DNA of 23,195 bases from a virus. Of this stretch, positions 3,946 through 23,195 are shown one piece after another. A model generated the notes under the pieces. That model saw only the letters and a program-made list of their open reading frames with translations. It searched no databases and was not told the origin of the DNA. The stretch's first letter is position 1; each line of letters starts with the position of its first letter. A program made the translations under genes and the position numbers. The stretch covers positions 1 to 23,195 of IMG/VR virus record IMGVR_UViG_3300035034_000417. One strand, 5' to 3'.

Positions 3946-4464
3946 ATGGCTTGTAACGAATTAATGGGTATAGAAAAGGAATGCACAAATAATCTAGGAG
4001 GTGTTAGAGAGATTTATTTAATTTCAGTATATCAAATAGAAAATATAGTATATACCGCTGGAATAATAACTGAAATAAATTTAACAGAAGGAGATTTTGC
4101 TAGGTATGAACCCCCAAACCTTTCTGCTAATTATGATGTTACATACTCTATAGATTCCCTCGGTGTAATAGAATATGAACATAGGATAAATTTTTCAATT
4201 TCCAAAAGACTAAATTCTAAAAACGTAGAACTTCAGAATCTAGCGGGAGGAAATAGGGAAATGGTAGCTATTATTTTAGATTCAAATGAGCAATGGTGGT
4301 TATTGGGAGCTTACTCTGGGCTTACTCTTGATACCTTATCTGGGGGTTCTGGGACTTCATTAAGCGACGGCTCTCAATACAATCTAACTTTGTCTGGAAT
4401 ATCTCCAGTTATGGAAGCTTCTATTTCCCCCGCTTCTATCCCTTCTATTATACCAGAGAAGTAA
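3946..4464 (+). CDS. Tail-tube-like structural protein, MACNE family copy 1
   Basis: 172 residues beginning MACNELMGIEKECTNNLGGV. It is a paralogue of the protein at 6682-7215. The two share MACNE-x2-GI-x-K-x-C-x3-N-x-GGV at the start, a D-x-NE-x2-W stretch at about 110-117 and a GGSGT motif near residue 133, followed by a G-x-x-Y/L-LT strand. The sequence looks all-beta, as tube and decoration proteins do. The likely role is the tail tube or a tube-related protein, since it lies between chaperone-like and capsid genes. Which paralogue builds the tube cannot be decided from sequence. The start is preceded by AAAAAAGGATAATAAT, 4 bp after the previous stop. Confidence 0.55.
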   Translation: MACNELMGIEKECTNNLGGVREIYLISVYQIENIVYTAGIITEINLTEGDFARYEPPNLSANYDVTYSIDSLGVIEYEHRINFSISKRLNSKNVELQNLAGGNREMVAIILDSNEQWWLLGAYSGLTLDTLSGGSGTSLSDGSQYNLTLSGISPVMEASISPASIPSIIPEK

Positions 4465-4497: not shown

Positions 4498-5655
4498 ATG
4501 AAATTACCTATTTATAACATAACATTCGATCCAACGGAATTCGAAAGTGGAATAGATATGATCGCTATCACAGAAGATCCTGCTATTGAGGTATTTGCAC
4601 TTAAGTTTAAGTCACATTCAAAAGACGTAATAAGTTCATTTCATTTTGATAACGAAAAGCAGATAATTGCTGGCCCTGTTGCTATCCCAGATAAACCCAT
4701 TTACAGAAAATCTAAAGAACTTGGGGAATACTATGCAGTATTTACCAAGGAGGTAATAGAAAGAATGGCTGAGAAATTCAACGAAGAGCAAAGAGTTATT
4801 AAGTTTAATTCAGAGCACGACGAAAATAAGCCAATAGAAGGCTTTATTAAAGGATCTTGGTTAATAGAGGATACGGAAAAAGACAAAGCTAACTTTTATG
4901 GCTTTACTGATTTACCAATAGGTACTTTCTTCATAGAAGCTAAGATAACTGACCCGGAGCAATGGAAAGAAATCAAAGAAAAAGAAAATGTTGGTTTCAG
5001 TCTAGAAGGTCTTTTAGGTATAACTGAAGCACAATTCAAATCCCAAAAGGATAATACAAATAAAACAAAAAACATGAAGAAAAATAAATTTTTTGCTACC
5101 ATGTTAACTACTAAGAAAACTTTTAACAAGACTACTAAGAAATTCGAACAAACCTTAGTTCAGTCAGAAGAAGAAATACTAGTTGTTGATGAAGGTATGG
5201 AAACTGGAAGTGATGTAGAAGTCATTTCAGAAGACGGTGCAATAGTTACAGCTCCAGACGGGGAATATGCTTTACCAGATGCTGGTAAAACTATCGTAGT
5301 ATCAGAAGGTTCTATTTCAGAAGTTACTGATGTGGAAGTACTGCAAGAAGAGGTGGAAGAAGTAGAGATGGAAGCTGAAGATTCTAAAGAAGAAGAAATG
5401 GAAGCTGAAGATACTAAAGAAGATTCTAAAGAAGAAGAAATGGAAGCTGAAGATACTAAAGAAGATTCTAAAGAAGAAGAAATGGAAGCTGATGCTGAAA
5501 TAATTACTAAGATGGTAGAAATGGAAGCTAGAATAGAAGCTTTAGAAGCTATGTTAGCAGAAGATGATTCTGATTTTAATAAGAAAAACAAATTTAGCTT
5601 AAGTAGAGATCTACAGACTAAGTCTGAAAAGCTTTCCTTCGTTAAATCATTATAA
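4498..5655 (+). CDS. XkdF-like prohead protease fused to a scaffold-like acidic tail
   Basis: 385 residues in two parts. Residues 1-185 resemble XkdF-type prohead serine proteases: IIAGPVAIPDKPIYRK (56-71), YYAVFTKEVIERMAEKFNEE, then FNSEHDENKPIEGF with likely catalytic His107, then NVGFSLEGLLG with likely catalytic Ser168. From residue 193 on comes a lysine-rich start, a beta-like stretch (APDGEYALPDAGKTIVV), a strongly acidic repeat (about 288-333) and a C-terminal coiled coil (MVEMEARIEALEAMLAE). That second part has the character of a scaffolding protein. The gene stands directly before the capsid gene, as maturation proteases do. It would cleave scaffold and capsid partners inside the procapsid. 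The family call is by motif; the catalytic residues are inferred. Confidence 0.75.
   Translation: MKLPIYNITFDPTEFESGIDMIAITEDPAIEVFALKFKSHSKDVISSFHFDNEKQIIAGPVAIPDKPIYRKSKELGEYYAVFTKEVIERMAEKFNEEQRVIKFNSEHDENKPIEGFIKGSWLIEDTEKDKANFYGFTDLPIGTFFIEAKITDPEQWKEIKEKENVGFSLEGLLGITEAQFKSQKDNTNKTKNMKKNKFFATMLTTKKTFNKTTKKFEQTLVQSEEEILVVDEGMETGSDVEVISEDGAIVTAPDGEYALPDAGKTIVVSEGSISEVTDVEVLQEEVEEVEMEAEDSKEEEMEAEDTKEDSKEEEMEAEDTKEDSKEEEMEADAEIITKMVEMEARIEALEAMLAEDDSDFNKKNKFSLSRDLQTKSEKLSFVKSL
5074..5655 (+). CDS. Possible internal in-frame scaffold product
   Basis: Inside the protease gene, Met193 (ATG 5074) is preceded by ACAAATAAAACAAAAAAC, the same A-rich leader found before independent genes in this window. 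It begins MKKNKFFATMLTTKK, immediately after the protease domain. Starting there would give a 193-residue acidic scaffold-like protein without the protease. Phage lambda makes scaffold Nu3 from inside its protease gene C in just this way. The leader is seen; separate translation is inference. Confidence 0.4.
   Translation: MKKNKFFATMLTTKKTFNKTTKKFEQTLVQSEEEILVVDEGMETGSDVEVISEDGAIVTAPDGEYALPDAGKTIVVSEGSISEVTDVEVLQEEVEEVEMEAEDSKEEEMEAEDTKEDSKEEEMEAEDTKEDSKEEEMEADAEIITKMVEMEARIEALEAMLAEDDSDFNKKNKFSLSRDLQTKSEKLSFVKSL
5389..5492 (+). repeat. 42-bp tandem repeat in the protease/scaffold gene
   Basis: Two exact 42-bp units (5389-5430 and 5431-5472) plus a 20-bp partial third copy. Each codes EEEMEAEDTKEDSK. 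A diverged fragment (GAAGCTGAAGATTCTAAA) precedes them. The units make a highly acidic stretch of the scaffold-like tail. Identical codons suggest recent expansion by slippage. Confidence 0.85.
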
Positions 5656-5720: not shown

Positions 5721-6638
5721 ATGAAAAAATACAAATTTGCAATCGTCGATAATACTGTTTACACAGGAAAGGACGCGCTAGATTTTTACAGCTCAGCACT
5801 TTTAGAAGGTGGATCTACTTCTTTATTTAGATTAGTTCCTAACGTAAAGTCTAAGATTAAACTTCCTTCATATAATGCAGGAGAAATTATAAAAGATGAA
5901 GGTTGCGCATGGTCACCATCAGGTGAAGGTACTCTTGACCAAAAGTCTTTTGAAGTATGTGGAAAAGACATTCAATTAGAATTGTGTGCTACTACTTTCG
6001 AAAATAACTTCCTTGGTGAGCTTATGAGACCAGGATCAAACACTGGTGAAGTAGCTCCTCCTGATTTTCTTAACTATATGACTGGAGAAGTTGCTAGAAA
6101 AGTACAGAACGATTTAGAAGTTGCTGCATGGCAAGGTGATGTTGATTCTGTTTCTGGATACCCATTCACTATTTGTGATGGTATTAACAAAAAAGCAGCT
6201 GCTGATGCAACTGTAATTGATGTAACAGGGGAAACAGTAACACTCGCAAATGTTATTGCTGAGATTACTAAAGTTTATAACGCAATTCCTGCTACTATCA
6301 TAAACTCTCCAGATTTGAGAATATTCGTATCTGATAATATCGCAAGATTGTACCAACAAGCTGTTGCAACTGCATCTAACGAAGCTTACTACGTTGGAGC
6401 TAAAGAAGCTAACTTCTTAGGTATACCTTTCGTAGTTGCTCAAGGTCAACTACCAGATGTTATGTTAGCTGGTGTTACTACTAACTTCGTACTTTTAACT
6501 GATTTACTTTCAGATGAGCAAGAACTTAATGTAATTCCTCAAAATGCAGTAACAGGAACAAGAACAGTTAGAATTGCCGGATCTTTCAAAATAGGATTTG
6601 ACTTTTTAGTTGGTTCAGAAGTAGTATACTACGCATAA
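5721..6638 (+). CDS. Major capsid protein
   Basis: 305 residues, about the size of a mature HK97-fold capsid subunit. It follows the protease gene after 65 bp and has the longest A-rich leader here. Visible features are an N-terminal arm (FAIVDNTVYTGKDALDFYSSALL), a segment GSNTGEVAPPDFLNYMTGEVARKVQNDLEVAAWQGD (about 108-140) resembling the long spine helix region of capsid proteins, and a beta-rich C-terminal half ending ...VRIAGSFKIGFDFLVGSEVVYYA. That ending is typical of the last strands of the fold. It has no N-terminal delta-domain extension, so scaffolding is probably supplied by the acidic tail of the upstream gene. It forms the icosahedral shell. The identification is by context, size and ending rather than by an exact family match. 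Confidence 0.85.
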   Translation: MKKYKFAIVDNTVYTGKDALDFYSSALLEGGSTSLFRLVPNVKSKIKLPSYNAGEIIKDEGCAWSPSGEGTLDQKSFEVCGKDIQLELCATTFENNFLGELMRPGSNTGEVAPPDFLNYMTGEVARKVQNDLEVAAWQGDVDSVSGYPFTICDGINKKAAADATVIDVTGETVTLANVIAEITKVYNAIPATIINSPDLRIFVSDNIARLYQQAVATASNEAYYVGAKEANFLGIPFVVAQGQLPDVMLAGVTTNFVLLTDLLSDEQELNVIPQNAVTGTRTVRIAGSFKIGFDFLVGSEVVYYA

Positions 6639-6681: not shown

Positions 6682-7215
6682 ATGGCATGTAACGAAATAT
6701 TAGGTATAGCTAAAGATTGTTTAGGTAATGCTGGAGGAGTATCCAGAATTTGGCTAAATAACGGAGATGCTATCGATATGAGCACGGTCACTTATGATAC
6801 TGATGAAACAGTATCTGCAGCTGATTTAGCTCCAGGAGCAACAGGATTTGTTGAATTTCAATTTAATCCGAATGTGAGTTCATTTACTGATAATATACTT
6901 GTAGATTTAACAACTTCTTCTACATTTTACGATCAGATAGTTAGCTTACAGCTTAGCAGAAGAGAAGCAATTAAGAGACAAAGAATTCTTTTAATTGCTG
7001 ATGGACAACCACCTTTAACTATGATGGTGAAGGATGCAAATGAAAACTATTGGATCTTTGGTCTGAGAGAGGACAAAATGTATCTAACTGGATCAGAAGG
7101 TGGATCAGGAACACTTAAAACAGATCTTAACGGATATGTTTTAACGTTTACCGCACAGTCCGCATTCCCTGCCTTTGCAATAGAGGAATCCGTTGCTCTC
7201 GCTTTGGCATCGTAA
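6682..7215 (+). CDS. Tail-tube-like structural protein, MACNE family copy 2
   Basis: 177 residues, starting MACNEILGIAKDCLGNAGGV. It is a paralogue of 3946-4464, with a similar N-terminus, a DANENYWIFGL segment at about 118-128 and GGSGT near 139. The composition is beta-rich, as in tube proteins. The gene has an A-rich leader (TTAAAAATAAAAATAACAAC) and is closed by the best mid-operon terminator. This suggests it and the capsid gene share an abundant transcript, as expected of the major tail tube protein. An alternative is a capsid decoration protein. Confidence 0.6.
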   Translation: MACNEILGIAKDCLGNAGGVSRIWLNNGDAIDMSTVTYDTDETVSAADLAPGATGFVEFQFNPNVSSFTDNILVDLTTSSTFYDQIVSLQLSRREAIKRQRILLIADGQPPLTMMVKDANENYWIFGLREDKMYLTGSEGGSGTLKTDLNGYVLTFTAQSAFPAFAIEESVALALAS

Positions 7216-10108: not shown

Positions 10109-10654
10109 TTATATAAAAGAAGGGTCTTCAAATTTAAATTCATTTTGAGCTTTTATATACTTCTCTCCCGTATGAACTTTAAATCTAACGATCTTAGTAA
10201 CGAAATGTCTTTTAATTTGAAAGTGATGTGATATAGAAGAAATAGCAACTCCAGCTGAATAAAGTATTCTCATCTTAGCTACATCTACAGGAGGTATATT
10301 TGCATTAACGTCTTTCATACTAAATCGAAGGTTCTCCTTATGTGAAATCCATTCCAAATTTGAAACGTGATTATTTGATGTGTTCCTATCCTTATGATTA
10401 ACTTCTAAACTAGGATGAGCCTTATCCAAAAAAGCATTAGCAACTAATCGATGTACATATCTATAGTTCTTTTGTCCTTTGCCTATTTTTAGGTGGACCC
10501 TCTGATATCTATGGTTTGCTCTACCTCCTGTGGCATGTGATTTTATTATATCACCGGTATAGCCATTTTTAACTTCACCCTCATCTGATATAAGATAGTT
10601 TGTCTCCTGACCGTTTAATTGGATGGCCTTCCATTTTGAATCTTGCATTTTCAT
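10109..10654 (-). CDS. HNH homing endonuclease (NUMOD4-HNH type)
   Basis: 181 residues, the only convincing minus-strand gene in the window. The N-terminus (WKAIQLNGQETNYLISDEGEVKN) is a NUMOD4 DNA-binding motif. The HNH core is YRYVHRLVANAFL, then EVNHKDRNTSNNHVSNLEWIS (His68, Asn86-His87, Asn94/95). The C-terminal part (DVAKMRILYSAGVAISSISHHFQIKRHFVTKIV) looks like a helix-turn-helix specificity module. Free-standing enzymes of this type nick or cut DNA at a specific site and spread by repair. It lies alone between terminators, facing the late operon, so it is probably a mobile insertion in an intergenic region. ATG 10654 was chosen because it follows TTTTTAAAAATAATT; a GTG at 10672 would add six residues. 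Confidence 0.88.
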   Translation of the reverse strand: MKMQDSKWKAIQLNGQETNYLISDEGEVKNGYTGDIIKSHATGGRANHRYQRVHLKIGKGQKNYRYVHRLVANAFLDKAHPSLEVNHKDRNTSNNHVSNLEWISHKENLRFSMKDVNANIPPVDVAKMRILYSAGVAISSISHHFQIKRHFVTKIVRFKVHTGEKYIKAQNEFKFEDPSFI

Positions 10655-10739
10655 AATTATTTTTAAAAACACCAGTCGGGATGTTTACTTCTTATATATT
10701 ACCATTAGTACAAACTTCTTGGAGCAATTGCCCTTTCGA

Positions 10740-10762
10740 ATCGTTAGATTATTGTTAAAGTT
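10740..10762 (+). repeat. 23-bp direct repeat, copy 1
   Basis: The repeat starts ATCGTTAGATTATTGTTA and ends GTT. It matches copy 2 (10893-10915) at 22 of 23 positions. It abuts GAAAC of promoter-like element B. It could be an operator for a phage regulator or an upstream promoter element. Confidence 0.8.
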
Positions 10763-10792
10763 GAAACAAAGGTTTATATTCTGACATATATA
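10763..10792 (+). promoter_or_regulatory. Promoter-like element B (GAAAC-17-CATATATA)
   Basis: GAAAC (10763-10767) and CATATATA (10785-10792), 17 bp apart, directly downstream of repeat copy 1. Transcription would begin near 10799 and meet a terminator at 10828-10857, giving a very short RNA. Confidence 0.4.
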
Positions 10793-10798
10793 GGATGT

Positions 10799-10857
10799 AA
10801 CTTATTTTTAGTCTCTGACAGTTATAAGGGCCAGTTTTGAACTTCTGGTCCTTTTTT
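10799..10857 (+). ncRNA. Possible short RNA or attenuated leader
   Basis: If element B is a promoter, the product up to the terminator is only about 60 nt and has no ORF of note. It may be a small regulatory RNA, or a leader whose terminator is relieved by antitermination to reach the replication genes. This is inference from promoter-terminator spacing alone. Confidence 0.25.
10828..10857 (+). terminator. Rho-independent terminator between the two promoter-like elements
   Basis: GGGCCAG (10828-10834) pairs with CTGGTCC (10845-10851), one G-U pair. The loop is 10 nt, followed by a run of six T. Two more A-T pairs can extend the stem. Confidence 0.75.
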
Positions 10858-10892
10858 GTGGTAATTTAGTTAGAACCTCCGTACACCAAGGT

Positions 10893-10915
10893 ATCGTTAG
10901 ATTATTGTTAGAGTT
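10893..10915 (+). repeat. 23-bp direct repeat, copy 2
   Basis: Same as copy 1 except for one A-to-G change near its end. It starts 55 bp before the CATATATA of element C, while copy 1 starts 45 bp before that of element B, a difference of about one helical turn. Confidence 0.8.
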
Positions 10916-10928
10916 CGTAGAATGACCC

Positions 10929-10955
10929 GAAACTTTACGTCATGTTGCATATATA
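10929..10955 (+). promoter_or_regulatory. Promoter-like element C ahead of the replication genes
   Basis: GAAAC (10929-10933) and CATATATA (10948-10955), 14 bp apart, followed by AT. Transcription would start near 10962, leaving a short A-rich leader before the ATG at 10980. It is the best-placed promoter for the replication operon. Confidence 0.45.
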
Positions 10956-10979
10956 ATAGACAACAAACAAATAATCATT

Positions 10980-11258
10980 ATGAGACAAATAAAACAATTA
11001 CCTTTTAATTCTAAAGACTGGAGAGGAGACGTAAGAATATCTAGACTTAATCTACAACAAAAAGGCTTCTATCTAGAGTTAATGAATGAATGTATATTAA
11101 CTGAATCTGATAGACTAAAACTAGATTTGAATTATTATGCTAGACTATTCAGAACGAGAAATACCTCAATATCAAATGTACTAGGGGTATTACAAAAAAC
11201 TGGGCTATTAAAAATAGAGAATGATATTATAATACTTCATATCATGGAGGAATATTAA
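10980..11258 (+). CDS. DUF1376-like replication-associated protein
   Basis: 92 residues. The start PFNSKDWRGDVRISRLNLQQKGFYLELMNEC follows the pattern of DUF1376 proteins (aromatic, D-W, then a run ending L-x2-Q/E-x-G-x-Y-x-x-L-x-x). These are winged-helix-like domains found in phage replication regions. The later part (YARLFRTRNTSISNVLGVLQKTGLLKIENDIIILHIM) also fits a winged helix. It is the first gene after the control region and precedes the initiator by 32 bp. A DNA-binding or replication accessory role is likely; a specific activity is unknown. Confidence 0.65.
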   Translation: MRQIKQLPFNSKDWRGDVRISRLNLQQKGFYLELMNECILTESDRLKLDLNYYARLFRTRNTSISNVLGVLQKTGLLKIENDIIILHIMEEY

Positions 11259-11290
11259 TATAAAACAGAGACTAAAAATAAAGAATTAAA

Positions 11291-12316
11291 ATGAGCAAAA
11301 AACAAGGATGGATAAAGATCCACAGAGACCTACTAGATTCTAACTTCTGGAAACTAGCAAAAGGAGAAAAGCTTTCTAAGAGAGAAGCTTGGCTAGAAAT
11401 ACTACTTCTAGCTAATCATTCTACCTCTAAATTTATGAATAACGGGATTATAACTATAGTGGAAAGAGGTCAATTAGCTAGGACTAAAGTTGCACTCTCA
11501 AAACGTTGGAATTGGAATATAAAAACGGTAAGAAAATTCTTAAAAAAGCTAGAAAGTACCCAACAGATTACTCAAGAGATATCTAACTCTACTACTATTA
11601 TAACAGTGGTTAATTATGAAAAATATCAGAATTTAGAGGTCCCCCGTACCCAACAGAGTACCCAACAGAGTACCCAACAGAGTACCCAACAGAGTACCTA
11701 CATACAAGAATGTAATAAGAATATACTAAAGAATGTAAAAGAACAACAAGCACCGGACGAGCCGGATTTGTGTGTTGAGAATCTTGATAAGCTTTCAGGA
11801 AAGAATGAAAGAGATATTAGTAAAGATCCTTTAGGTGAGTATCAATTTACCGAACCTTTAGGGCAATCTATCCTAATGGAAATAGATAAGGAATCAGAAT
11901 GGTCATCTTTCATAAAGCTTTATCCTTCAGAAGGTGATATGGGGCTAAAAAACAAATCAGGAAGAGGGGCAGCTAAAAAGAGATTTTTTAAGTTCTCTCC
12001 AGATGATAGGCTTAGAATTGTTCAAGAGCTTAAAAATGCTCAGCCCTTCATATTGAAAAATAGTTATTTAAGCTGGATGTCAAGTCTACTTAAGAACAAT
12101 ACTGAAGCAAATTCGTTAATTGAGAAGATTAGAGCTATAAAACCTACAGTAGATAATTCAAAGACTAAAGGACATCGTATGATGGACATGCATCAAGGCT
12201 CGCTTAAGCCTGATGGCACTAAGGATTATTCTAAAGCACCTCCAGGCACTAATGTTAATGTTATAGATGGTAATGCAAGAATTGCTGAACTTCGAGCAAA
12301 AGGAATGATAAAATAA
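11291..12316 (+). CDS. Replication initiator / replisome organiser (DnaD or lambda-O-like)
   Basis: 341 residues. The first 110 form a winged-helix unit: GWIKIHRDLLDSNFW, then SKREAWLEILLLANH, and later RGQLARTKVALSKRWNWNIKTVRKFLKKLE. This architecture is common in phage replication initiators. A repeated STQQ linker follows at about 119-135. The C-terminal part (EWSSFIKLYPSEGDMGLKNKSGRGAAKKRFFKFSPDDRLRIVQELKNAQ) is helical and could contact the helicase loader. The gene directly precedes the DnaC-like gene, the order seen for initiator and loader in many phages. DNA encoding the linker carries 12-bp iterons, suggesting the origin lies inside this gene, as in lambda O. The family name is tentative. 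Confidence 0.7.
   Translation: MSKKQGWIKIHRDLLDSNFWKLAKGEKLSKREAWLEILLLANHSTSKFMNNGIITIVERGQLARTKVALSKRWNWNIKTVRKFLKKLESTQQITQEISNSTTIITVVNYEKYQNLEVPRTQQSTQQSTQQSTQQSTYIQECNKNILKNVKEQQAPDEPDLCVENLDKLSGKNERDISKDPLGEYQFTEPLGQSILMEIDKESEWSSFIKLYPSEGDMGLKNKSGRGAAKKRFFKFSPDDRLRIVQELKNAQPFILKNSYLSWMSSLLKNNTEANSLIEKIRAIKPTVDNSKTKGHRMMDMHQGSLKPDGTKDYSKAPPGTNVNVIDGNARIAELRAKGMIK
11556..11738 (+). other. Candidate replication origin inside the initiator gene
   Basis: The 12-mer GTACCCAACAGA occurs once at 11556-11567 and four times in tandem at 11646-11693. An AT-rich stretch follows (11699-11745), with AGAATGTAA repeated at 11707 and 11730. Iterons inside the initiator gene beside an AT-rich unwinding region is the layout of the lambda origin. 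Origin function is inferred. Confidence 0.45.
11646..11698 (+). repeat. 12-bp tandem iteron-like array
   Basis: Four exact tandem copies of GTACCCAACAGA and a partial fifth (GTACC). They code S-T-Q-Q. All copies use the same codons. The spacing places each copy about one helical turn apart. Confidence 0.9.
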
Positions 12317-12348
12317 TAATTACATTTAAAAATAAACAAATAAAAATC

Positions 12349-12951
12349 ATGAACACACTAGAAATAAACAGAATCGAATTAGATACACTATTAGAAATTC
12401 AAAATTGGTCCGCTTTAGGTTTAGACCCGTATAAAGGGCTTCTCCTTCATGGTAATATAGGAACTGGTAAGACTACATTCTTTCTTGATAATTTTTTTCC
12501 TACCCTAGATAAACAACTTCATTTTGGCTCTCGTGAAGGTAGGTTCTCAGGAAATGTTAAGACTTTAGTTAGAGAACTTAAGAGAGCAGCGGCAGCCAAA
12601 GAAGAAAACGCATACTCAAAAATGCAGGAGTATTATCTATCCCATGGTATGTTATTAGATGATCTCGGTAGAGAGGCTAAAGACGTTAAGATTTATGGTA
12701 ATAGTGAACAACCTGTTGTTGATCTTTTAGAGAAATATTATGAAGGATTTAAAACTAGTATAAATTTTTATAAGGAAAGAGGAATAGGGAATGCTCCGCA
12801 TAAATACGTACAAGCTAAATTAATACATGCGACTTCCAATATGTCTCTTGAGGAACTTTCGGCATCTTATGACTCCTATTTGTTTGATAGAATGAAAGAA
12901 ATATTTAATTTCGTATCTGTTCAGGGGGGATCTTTAAGAGATGAAACCTAA
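12349..12951 (+). CDS. DnaC-like helicase-loader ATPase
   Basis: 200 residues of an AAA+ ATPase of the DnaC/IstB type. It has Walker A GNIGTGKT (35-42), Walker B MLLDDLG (101-107), sensor 1 ATSN (161-164) and an arginine finger region SYLFDRMKEIF (Arg181). This is close to the DnaC pattern ...SRM.EM. Loaders open the host DnaB ring and place it on DNA; no helicase gene is seen in the window, so host DnaB is the probable partner. The N-terminal helicase-binding part is short. The gene follows the initiator by 32 bp and the next small ORF overlaps its end by 11 bp. Confidence 0.85.
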   Translation: MNTLEINRIELDTLLEIQNWSALGLDPYKGLLLHGNIGTGKTTFFLDNFFPTLDKQLHFGSREGRFSGNVKTLVRELKRAAAAKEENAYSKMQEYYLSHGMLLDDLGREAKDVKIYGNSEQPVVDLLEKYYEGFKTSINFYKERGIGNAPHKYVQAKLIHATSNMSLEELSASYDSYLFDRMKEIFNFVSVQGGSLRDET

Positions 12952-13057
12952 ATGGTCCGGCCCGAAGGATGTACCCTTCATTAAAGATCCAGAAGAGAGG
13001 AGAATCCAATATGCAATAGACATAGAGAAGCTAATAGAGAAGCATAAGAATATATAA
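12941..13057 (+). CDS. Small unknown ORF (38 residues) overlapping the helicase loader
   Basis: Starts at ATG 12941, overlapping the loader stop by 11 bp, and encodes MKPKWSGPKDVPFIKDPEER... ending EKLIEKHKNI. Charged and helical in its second half. Overlap and same-strand context support a real coupled gene, but it is very short and has no recognised relatives. Confidence 0.5.
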   Translation: MKPKWSGPKDVPFIKDPEERRIQYAIDIEKLIEKHKNI

Positions 13058-13082
13058 AGAACTAAAAATAACTAATTATGAA

Positions 13083-13343
13083 ATGCACATTAAAGAAGGA
13101 ACAGAAGACTTACACACAGCACATATTATAAGTACATACTTAAGAATGAAGAAGCTTATAAAGAAGCAAGAAAAACAAATCGATATACTTAGAGAGAAAC
13201 ATAAGATCAAAATACAAGAATTACAATTTGAAGCTGATGAAGCTTTCCTACAATCTTTTAATGGTCAGAAGGAAATTAAATCACAATTGGCTCTTTTAGA
13301 AAGAATACATCCAAAAAAGAGCCCTGAAGATAATGGTAATTAA
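13083..13343 (+). CDS. Small coiled-coil protein of unknown function
   Basis: 86 residues, highly charged, with a likely coiled coil at about 20-70 (RMKKLIKKQEKQIDILREKH...). No catalytic motif, signal or membrane segment. It closes the replication operon. The start ATG 13083 has an A-rich leader (CTAAAAATAACTAATT). An alternative ATG 5 bp upstream opens only a 17-codon ORF in another frame. The function is unknown; a replication accessory or regulator is possible. Confidence 0.6.
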   Translation: MHIKEGTEDLHTAHIISTYLRMKKLIKKQEKQIDILREKHKIKIQELQFEADEAFLQSFNGQKEIKSQLALLERIHPKKSPEDNGN

Positions 13344-13443
13344 ATTATTTTTCTTATATTAGCCTTATAATTCAAACAAGGTCTTAATTTTAACTAACCC
13401 TCCGTTTAACTATGGAGAAAATAAACAACAAAAAAACAACATT

Positions 13444-14046
13444 ATGAAAAGCTTAACAAGATTACTCGTAATTTTAACCCTCTCTATAGGTTTTATTTCC
13501 TGTGAGAAGGATATTGTAACTCCAGGAGGGGACAGGATCTTTCCTTTAGATCCTACAGACTTTACGACGAATCCCAATAATACGGAATCCCCTGCAGGGA
13601 AGACCTATGGATACTATGGGATCCATAGGTATGAAAATATGTCATTAGTTAATGAGTACTTTATTTTAGATACTCTTTTTCATGAGGGCCTAATAGGACC
13701 AGATTCTTTATCATATCCTGAAACTTACTGTGTAACTAGATTCACATTTGAGGAGGACGGGGACTTTATTTACGATCTTTATGATATTATTGATGGACAA
13801 ATTAATACCATGTTTGGACTTAAGATATCTGGTGAATGGTCTTTAACCCCAGATTCTCTATTTAATACTAGAGATTTAGAGGAAAGATGGAATTCAGATC
13901 CAACACCAAACATGATTCTAATGGATCTAGAACCTGTTTTCCCCCTCAGAAGCTTATACCTGATCAAAGGGCAATTTCTATTTAGATATTATATTAACGA
14001 AGAAGACGGTATGATTTTTATCCAGTCTTTCAAGGAGGTTCAGTAA
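13444..14046 (+). CDS. Phage-encoded lipoprotein of unknown function
   Basis: 200 residues with a clear lipoprotein signal: basic start MKSLTR, hydrophobic stretch LLVILTLSIGF and lipobox FISC with Cys20. The next residues (EKD) are acidic/charged; charged residues after the cysteine can direct lipoproteins to the surface in Bacteroidota. The mature part is acidic with alternating strands (YGYYGIHRYENM, RFTFEEDGDFIYDLYDI, GLKISGEWSLTPDSL, YLIKGQFLFRYYI), suggesting a small beta barrel or lipocalin-like fold. It stands alone, 100 bp after the replication genes, and ends before a strong terminator, so it is probably its own unit. Superinfection exclusion, as by the T5 lipoprotein Llp, is a reasonable guess. 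The 100-bp leader shows no convincing promoter. Confidence 0.8.
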   Translation: MKSLTRLLVILTLSIGFISCEKDIVTPGGDRIFPLDPTDFTTNPNNTESPAGKTYGYYGIHRYENMSLVNEYFILDTLFHEGLIGPDSLSYPETYCVTRFTFEEDGDFIYDLYDIIDGQINTMFGLKISGEWSLTPDSLFNTRDLEERWNSDPTPNMILMDLEPVFPLRSLYLIKGQFLFRYYINEEDGMIFIQSFKEVQ

Positions 14047-22900: not shown

Positions 22901-23195
22901 GAGGCCTTTCAGGAGCTACAGGAGCTACAGGAGCTACTGGTTCTTCAGGAGCAACAGGATCTACTGGTTCCTCGGGGGCTACAGGAGCAACAGGAGCTAC
23001 TGGTTCTTCAGGGATAGATGGAACAAGTGGTTCTTCAGGGATAGACGGAACTTCAGGAACAAGTGGATCTTCAGGAACAAGTGGATCTTCAGGAGCAGAT
23101 GGATCTTCAGGAACAAGTGGATCTTCAGGAGCAGATGGAACTTCAGGAACAAGTGGATCTTCAGGAGCAGATGGAACTTCAGGAACAAGTGGATC
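19915..23195 (+). CDS. Baseplate hub-like tail protein fused to a collagen-like adhesin, 3' cut by the window
   Basis: At least 1093 residues, open to the right edge. The N-terminus (VPINKSIAEIRDLSKRTGGFSKTIIIAGDKEANLVFGHYYDVNLVSTSFN) matches the pattern of hub-like baseplate proteins in Bacteroidota phages (P-I-N-x-S-I-x-D-I-R ... S-K-T-I-x-I-x-G). A long beta-rich middle follows. At about 868-910 a short repeat (VTIQGTDNII, VLVVGDNNTV, VIVIGNGID) looks like a triple-stranded fibre. From Gly997 the protein is a run of Gly-X-Y triplets without proline. The gene probably joins tail tip to receptor-binding fibre. It starts directly after the previous stop. The end and receptor-binding tip lie outside the window. 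Confidence 0.75.
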   Translation, partial: MTSTYIQTELGRLTPLKGTAVPINKSIAEIRDLSKRTGGFSKTIIIAGDKEANLVFGHYYDVNLVSTSFNHKVKVRAQIIQEDQSIFEGYMRLLSVNRISPTSGGLDQGIEYEINLSDTTGSFFQDIGDGLMSAPHTRSPEFNEEEAPNSPQFSPGLDISYLDHTYSMANIEETLDPNWNVDDGYKYVWSYLRDSGNYKIQDFMPAVYAKVYWDQIFASAGYSYSWPELADPSFRFDKILIPYTKGALENTEEIFSQGRAVVARSLNLTRAAASNIGNDFAGFVGVDPTLVFADSVILDEGSNMNPALDTYTLPFFQNVNQFSLDFKMSFQWQLVNQATEAIRFIEGIDDFVGGSFFLRPTISVRNITASSTFYNGEIISVPQSAKLSLHRSTLDFNNGEEYPPFSVSTLASEASGNTEFELDLTIPCNQIAEPGDEIQVSIGWKVDFNKTVQLGSRPSTGVPFTIQPGAILMVVDQFQISFIPTVSELTEGLELSMNAMIPAIKKRDFIKGFLNHYNLYTDVDPSDPNNILISGRDSFYDEGEEYDWTDKISTDRTSNITFTIEDTGKSKILTYKEGKDELNVGYQDVTGETYGQVRYIFEDEFAKGDSTIEVPWEPTPLVKNYLGHYVNGYNAQTLKAGIKVLYDGGPIDDESGNIIRYPVIRYGLVSNEAIENDRNVETNPQLKWLSAYNYSGHFDNPLNPNWDLNFNVCAYYFYNDWNSGLGDFNGITANNMFSLHHSRTYNQLEDGKILEGYFHLTSSDISTIRLNDRVFIQDSWWNILLIQDYNANERGLTKVKLISVDPLQGFSTFKSGRISGGTSFGTGINYVGEKVLRSPYRPNKASKFLQPLKDLAKSQSNEDNINHSNSGDVTIQGTDNIINEGVNNVLVVGDNNTVNEVSNVIVIGNGIDVDPEIPQPAIYLGDVIFTENGITGAGATGWINSLGINNVIFSDSVPDLTSGIVPEDFWWDTSRQQLAIQYVDVDGVQWVLVADRGLSGATGATGATGSSGATGSTGSSGATGATGATGSSGIDGTSGSSGIDGTSGTSGSSGTSGSSGADGSSGTSGSSGADGTSGTSGSSGADGTSGTSG
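22903..23195 (+). repeat. Collagen-like Gly-X-Y repeat
   Basis: 32 consecutive triplets up to the window edge. Early ones are mostly GAT and GSS, later ones GTS, GSS and GAD. No proline occurs. Codons are nearly identical (GGA with ACA, AGT, TCT/TCA), giving 9- and 18-bp DNA repeats. Such stretches form trimeric stalks in phage fibres and vary in length by slippage. Confidence 0.92.

Follow-up and report, generated by a model that had tools for sequence, protein, structure and literature searches.

The window (the whole stretch of viral DNA analyzed, 23,195 nucleotides) contains an initiator gene with short direct repeats and an AT-rich tract inside its coding sequence, followed on the same strand by a helicase-loader gene. 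The features on which the analysis rests are the following.

11291–12316, + strand: initiator (replisome organizer) gene, 341 aa; PF09681 and phrog_2514; winged helix (aa 1–115), disordered linker, C-terminal helices
11480–11542, + strand: helix-turn-helix codons (aa 64–84); AlphaFold2 (AF2) helices 66–73 and 77–89; array similarity across the family tracks these columns
11556–11579, + strand: upstream iteron block, one perfect and one degenerate 12-mer; own-array match found family-wide; codon choice p=0.002
11612–11629, + strand: codons of the NYxxYQ motif (aa 108–113), anchor of the family alignment
11646–11698, + strand: iteron array, 4.4 tandem copies of GTACCCAACAGA (TRF, 100% matches), at the start of the disordered-linker codons
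11699–11745, + strand: AT-rich tract with AAGAATGTA and AAGAATATA words, 79% A+T and of low duplex stability, a probable DNA-unwinding element
12349–12951, + strand: AAA+ helicase-loader gene, DnaC-like, counterpart of lambda P (phrog_3277, E 6e-10)

The initiator gene and its neighbors

The product of the 341-aa gene matched PF09681 (phage replisome organizer, N-terminal domain) with 30.8 bits against a gathering cut-off of 23.3, over profile positions 1–118 of 121, and its PHROG matches were phrog_2514 (E 5e-25) and phrog_186, families named "DnaD-like helicase loader". This family membership bears out the original prediction that the gene encodes a replication initiator. The NCBIfam model TIGR01714 (phage_rep_org_N) scored 21 bits, below its curated cut-off of 49.8. 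We ruled out a DnaD-domain protein, since no DnaD/DnaB_2-type domain appeared among the Pfam matches up to E 1 and the "DnaD-like" PHROG name derives from the N-domain.

In an AlphaFold2 model built with 48 family members, the winged helix (aa 11–110) had a mean pLDDT above 90 in every block, aa 127–205 formed a disordered linker, and the C-terminal helices were more poorly predicted. The winged helix resembles the DNA-binding domain of CAP (CAP-like wHTH, Z 8.9 over 79 residues); a Foldseek search with this domain returned nothing below E 0.001, and the solved structures reached by sequence search were mostly winged-helix regulators of a generic kind. From these CAP-like matches the fold is therefore clear, though no solved initiator stood out. 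Additionally, tblastn with the N-domain against the O proteins of IME10, HK022, HK620 and their relatives gave weak matches (E 3e-6 to 3e-3, 25–29% identity).

Upstream of the initiator gene and in the same direction, a 92-aa ORF (10980–11258) bears a weak likeness to the winged-helix N-domain (DUF1376, the phrog_9327 primosomal protein, phrog_186/2514) and may be a truncated paralogue or a regulator of the initiator. An HNH/NUMOD4 endonuclease-like gene (10109–10672, − strand) adjoins the replication module on the strand opposite to its neighbors. An Rfam search matched nothing, and a scan for promoters and terminators gave no signal beyond that of shuffled sequence, promoter-like sites in 10600–13500 being no commoner than in the shuffles. 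Cumulative GC skew rose almost monotonically through the window, following the coding strand, with only a shallow dip at 9.5–11 kb; the curve, which had been proposed as a check on the location of the origin, does not locate one and lends the prediction no support.

Iterons and AT-rich tract within the coding sequence

Exact search and TRF confirmed the reported arrangement of five exact 12-mers, four in tandem and one 78 bp upstream. Copies of GTACCCAACAGA lie on the + strand at 11556–11567, 11646–11657, 11658–11669, 11670–11681 and 11682–11693, with no further exact copy on either strand of the whole window, and the array runs five bases past 11693. All five share one reading frame of the initiator gene. 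The statement that all copies keep the same codons holds with one exception, the codon that opens the first array copy, which is CGT (Arg) because the 12-mer begins at codon position 2. Since the unit in the window is 12 bp long and in frame, the array taken alone could be a peptide repeat.

Directly after the isolated copy, at 11568, lies a degenerate copy, TTACTCAAGAGA, with 3 mismatches, so that the upstream element is a pair with 12-bp spacing; this block lies where the gene encodes the last part of the recognition helix and the first strand of the wing. When the 355 nt upstream were replaced by first-order Markov versions, the unit appeared in any rotation in 1 of 20,000. The upstream S-T-Q-Q is spelled AGT ACC CAA CAG, a choice with a probability of 0.002 under the window's own codon usage.

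The AT-rich tract with a repeated 9-mer that had been noted after the array is real. Its 79% A+T compares with 65% for the whole window, the 40-mers that start at 11700 and 11710 rank in the window's least stable 2–3%, and the 9-mer AAGAATGTA occurs at 11706 and again at 11729 in a different reading frame, with AAGAATATA at 11718.

Conservation in close relatives and across the family

An exact 24-mer array search of viral contigs returned only the near-identical L004, a relaxed pattern added only two known relatives, and a search of genome contigs with the N-domain gave one distant match. The array holds five copies in L003/L004 (98% in the initiator gene), four in L001 and three in L002. Every array copy in L001 and L002 reads CTACCCAACAGA, in which base 1 has changed from G to C and serine to threonine, and the upstream copy is still GTACCCAACAGA. 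A change this uniform indicates turnover of the array by slippage or conversion, in which the upstream copy takes no part; furthermore, as base 1 changed in the array only, the two blocks need not be strictly identical.

Whether relatives keep STQQ and freely change its codons had been set as the test of selection at the DNA level, and the outcome favored such selection. In L001 and L002 the serine was replaced and the other codons stayed the same, and between the window and L001 there are 0 synonymous changes in codons 77–178 (102 codons), compared with 31 over the 153 codons of the C-terminal part (permutation p<1e-4). With only three close relatives found in IMG/VR, this silence could also stem from recombination of a block, since the first 60 codons, too, carry only 2 synonymous changes. 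L001 and L002 share only 11290–12926 with the window, at about 86%, their flanks being unrelated and the homology beginning at the start codon; judging from these borders, the initiator–loader pair is exchanged as a cassette. Seven amino-acid changes between the window and L001 are packed into the helix-turn-helix, at aa 63–82 (11477–11536), and these changes, taken with the change of array base 1, suggest that reader and site may have changed together.

The wider comparison used 95 dereplicated representatives, below about 75% identity, drawn from named phages and IMG/VR. A tandem array significant against shuffles was present in the 110 nt after the NYxxYQ motif in 91 of the 95, with periods of 11 (40 genes), 12 (15 genes) or else multiples and near-multiples. 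As 11 is not a multiple of 3, such an array cycles through all three frames, which indicates that the repeat is one of DNA. The sequence of the iteron unit differs between phages of the family, and iteron similarity follows helix-turn-helix similarity once the remainder of the domain is allowed for (partial r 0.23; 0 of 5,000 Mantel permutations as high), where, as relatives are not independent samples, the p-values of this comparison and of the others overstate significance. Co-variation of this kind would be expected if this helix reads the unit, and aa 64–84 should accordingly be regarded as the predicted reader of the iterons.

For the upstream block, the stretch of wing codons from 78 to 12 nt upstream of NYxxYQ was scored against each phage's own array and against those of other phages. 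The mean score was 12.2 against own arrays and 8.2 against others', with 9.05 the best of 10,000 permutations (p<1e-4), and a scan that slid along the gene located the own-array excess only between roughly 60 and 30 nt upstream of the motif. Forty of the 57 strong upstream matches are out of frame, in 83 of the 95 genes (with p<=0.05 in 41) native upstream codons matched better than their synonymous shuffles, and the opposite-strand control gave almost no excess (6.6 vs 6.3). The distances that separate the upstream block from the first array copy it matches group around 57, 68, 79, 90 and 101 bp; the two blocks thus keep a phase, which may come partly from shared ancestry rather than selection. 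By this comparison the isolated copy of the window is one instance of a second block that recurs in the family, a recurrence that supports the earlier view that it is not a slippage product.

A tract of the form ACAAACAA(G/T)AATG usually follows the array in the family and exceeds synonymous shuffles, with AAGAATG observed 46 times against 14 ± 3 expected and AATAATG 67 times against 40 ± 4. The word A(A/G)NAATG lies 3' of the array in 61 of 95 representatives, and the consensus aligned on it is ACACAAACAA.AATGATAA. Translation of the tract word is mostly N/K-N-D/E/V; five members use another frame, among them the window, where it is read as Q-E-C.

A candidate embedded origin and its phage

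Taken together, these results make it probable, at roughly 85% in our estimate, that 11556–11745 is a theta-replication origin embedded in the initiator gene and composed of bipartite iterons and an AT tract. The order of winged helix, iterons in a disordered linker, AT-rich tract and helicase-loader gene supports the likeness to lambda O put forward in the original prediction. In the mechanism that we infer from this layout, several initiator molecules would bind the direct 12-bp iterons through the winged helix, both at the main array, with its four or more copies, and at a second block some 80 bp upstream, which comprises one or two copies and is placed in the wing codons of that very DNA-binding domain. 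The resulting nucleoprotein complex would span or loop the 78-bp spacer and would strain and open the AT-rich tract directly after the array, and the loader encoded by the neighboring gene would bring the replicative helicase of the host to the strand thus opened.

An iteron origin inside an initiator gene is of a kind already known, as in lambda O and SPP1 gene 38. Direct repeats within the coding sequence of the initiator, an adjacent AT-rich tract and a helicase-loader gene in the same module were all found here, which makes the window a further member of that kind, and the earlier heading was therefore right in substance. In lambda and the Stx phages the location of the origin inside the initiator gene is established, and lambda likewise has direct-repeat iterons in mid-gene, then an AT-rich tract, with a helicase-recruiting gene downstream (PMC7466680); it differs in having four longer iterons (annotated at 18 bp), no upstream block, and P instead of a DnaC-like AAA+ loader, whereas the window has 12-bp units in two blocks. 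The annotated rep_origin of HK620 overlaps the same part of its O gene. Compared by description, Bacillus phage SPP1, for which such a location is likewise established, has an organizer, G38P, that binds direct repeats in its own gene (oriL), an AT-rich DNA-unwinding element and a phage-encoded loader, but also a distant oriR and its own helicase (PMC6316719). In Staphylococcus phage 80alpha, ORF20 was not complemented in trans, suggesting an embedded ori, and ORF20-21, of which ORF21 is DnaC-like, were necessary and sufficient for replication (PMC5499656); the 80alpha record annotates a putative origin inside ORF20, which differs from the window in lacking the NYxxYQ motif, in an array period of 30 bp and in having only a weak upstream match. 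PF09681-type organizers of Firmicutes and Vibrio phages (e.g., phiPVL orf46) share the N-domain and the placement of arrays, wing-codon block and ACAAACAA(G/T)AATG tract, and differ in their mostly 11-bp iterons, in iteron sequence and in C-domains. The searchable literature, which did not extend to the main review and the primary SPP1 papers, yielded no earlier description of a two-block layout.

It is conceivable, if rather unlikely, that the origin comprises the array and AT tract only and that the upstream copies are functionless remnants or products of slippage or gene conversion. The array of the window's lineage has clearly been homogenized (G to C in all copies of the unit, copy number 3–5), the O genes of lambda, HK620 and CobraSix have no upstream block, and lambda replication in vitro required only the two iterons beside the AT tract (as cited in PMC7466680). 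However, homogenization of the L001 and L002 arrays was not copied upstream, and the block stands at a fixed place in a folded domain, with biased synonymous codons, in many phages below about 75% identity. Moreover, in Stx phages the outer iterons, although bound only weakly, are essential in vivo (PMC7466680).

The view that the array encodes an (S/T)TQQ peptide repeat in a flexible linker, its DNA repetition being a by-product of recent slippage, draws on the in-frame period of 12, the predicted disorder of the linker and the identity of the array copies, which could be recent. We rejected it as extremely improbable on account of the 11-bp, out-of-frame periods of most relatives; it also sits poorly with an amino acid that changed as the other codons stayed, with an upstream copy that uses the array's codons (p=0.002) and with AT-tract words in excess of synonymous shuffles. 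Initiators of iteron replicons often autoregulate, and the sites do lie within the operon, so that the repeats might instead be operator sites for repression or attenuation of the operon by its own initiator and not a replication origin. With the blocks 265–410 nt inside the gene, promoter-like sites no commoner than in shuffles, and a low-stability tract after the array that better fits an origin, we consider this very unlikely.

Beyond the embedded origin of the window, we regard as evenly balanced the proposition that a large class of phage initiators, in Firmicutes, Proteobacteria and probably Bacteroidota phages, has a bipartite origin with a second block in the wing codons at preferred spacing, the recognition domain and its site overlapping and switching specificity together. 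A rule that takes NYxxYQ codons, an 11–12 bp array and the ACAAACAA(G/T)AATG tract in this order, and a block matching the array between 60 and 30 nt upstream of the motif, should locate the replication origins of many uncultured phages and prophages by sequence alone. The layout also provides a case, open to experiment, in which the DNA that encodes a protein domain is a candidate site for binding by that domain; initiator specificity and origin would then have to evolve together as a single cassette.

The product of ORF 5721–6638 matches only phages of Nonlabens (Flavobacteriaceae), at 27%, and the best terminase matches are mainly phages of Bacteroides and Parabacteroides, at about 33%; these matches weakly support the description as a Bacteroidota-type phage, and a Bacteroidota host is only indirectly indicated. 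Nonlabens phage P12024S, the closest named phage by the 5721–6638 product, has no such initiator. Elsewhere in the window, collagen-like Gly-X-X repeats (units of 9, 18 and 36 bp) run from 22910 to 23195 and past the window end and match NCBIfam collagen-like adhesin models, the product probably being a tail-fiber-type protein. ORF 4498–5655 contains a 42-bp in-frame tandem repeat (5377–5492, 2.8 copies, 100% identical) that encodes an acidic EEEMEAED stretch. Two paralogous genes (3946–4464 and 6682–7215) flank ORFs 4498–5655 and 5721–6638 and have a common MACNE...GI start, where their DNA similarity is 73% over 62 nt.
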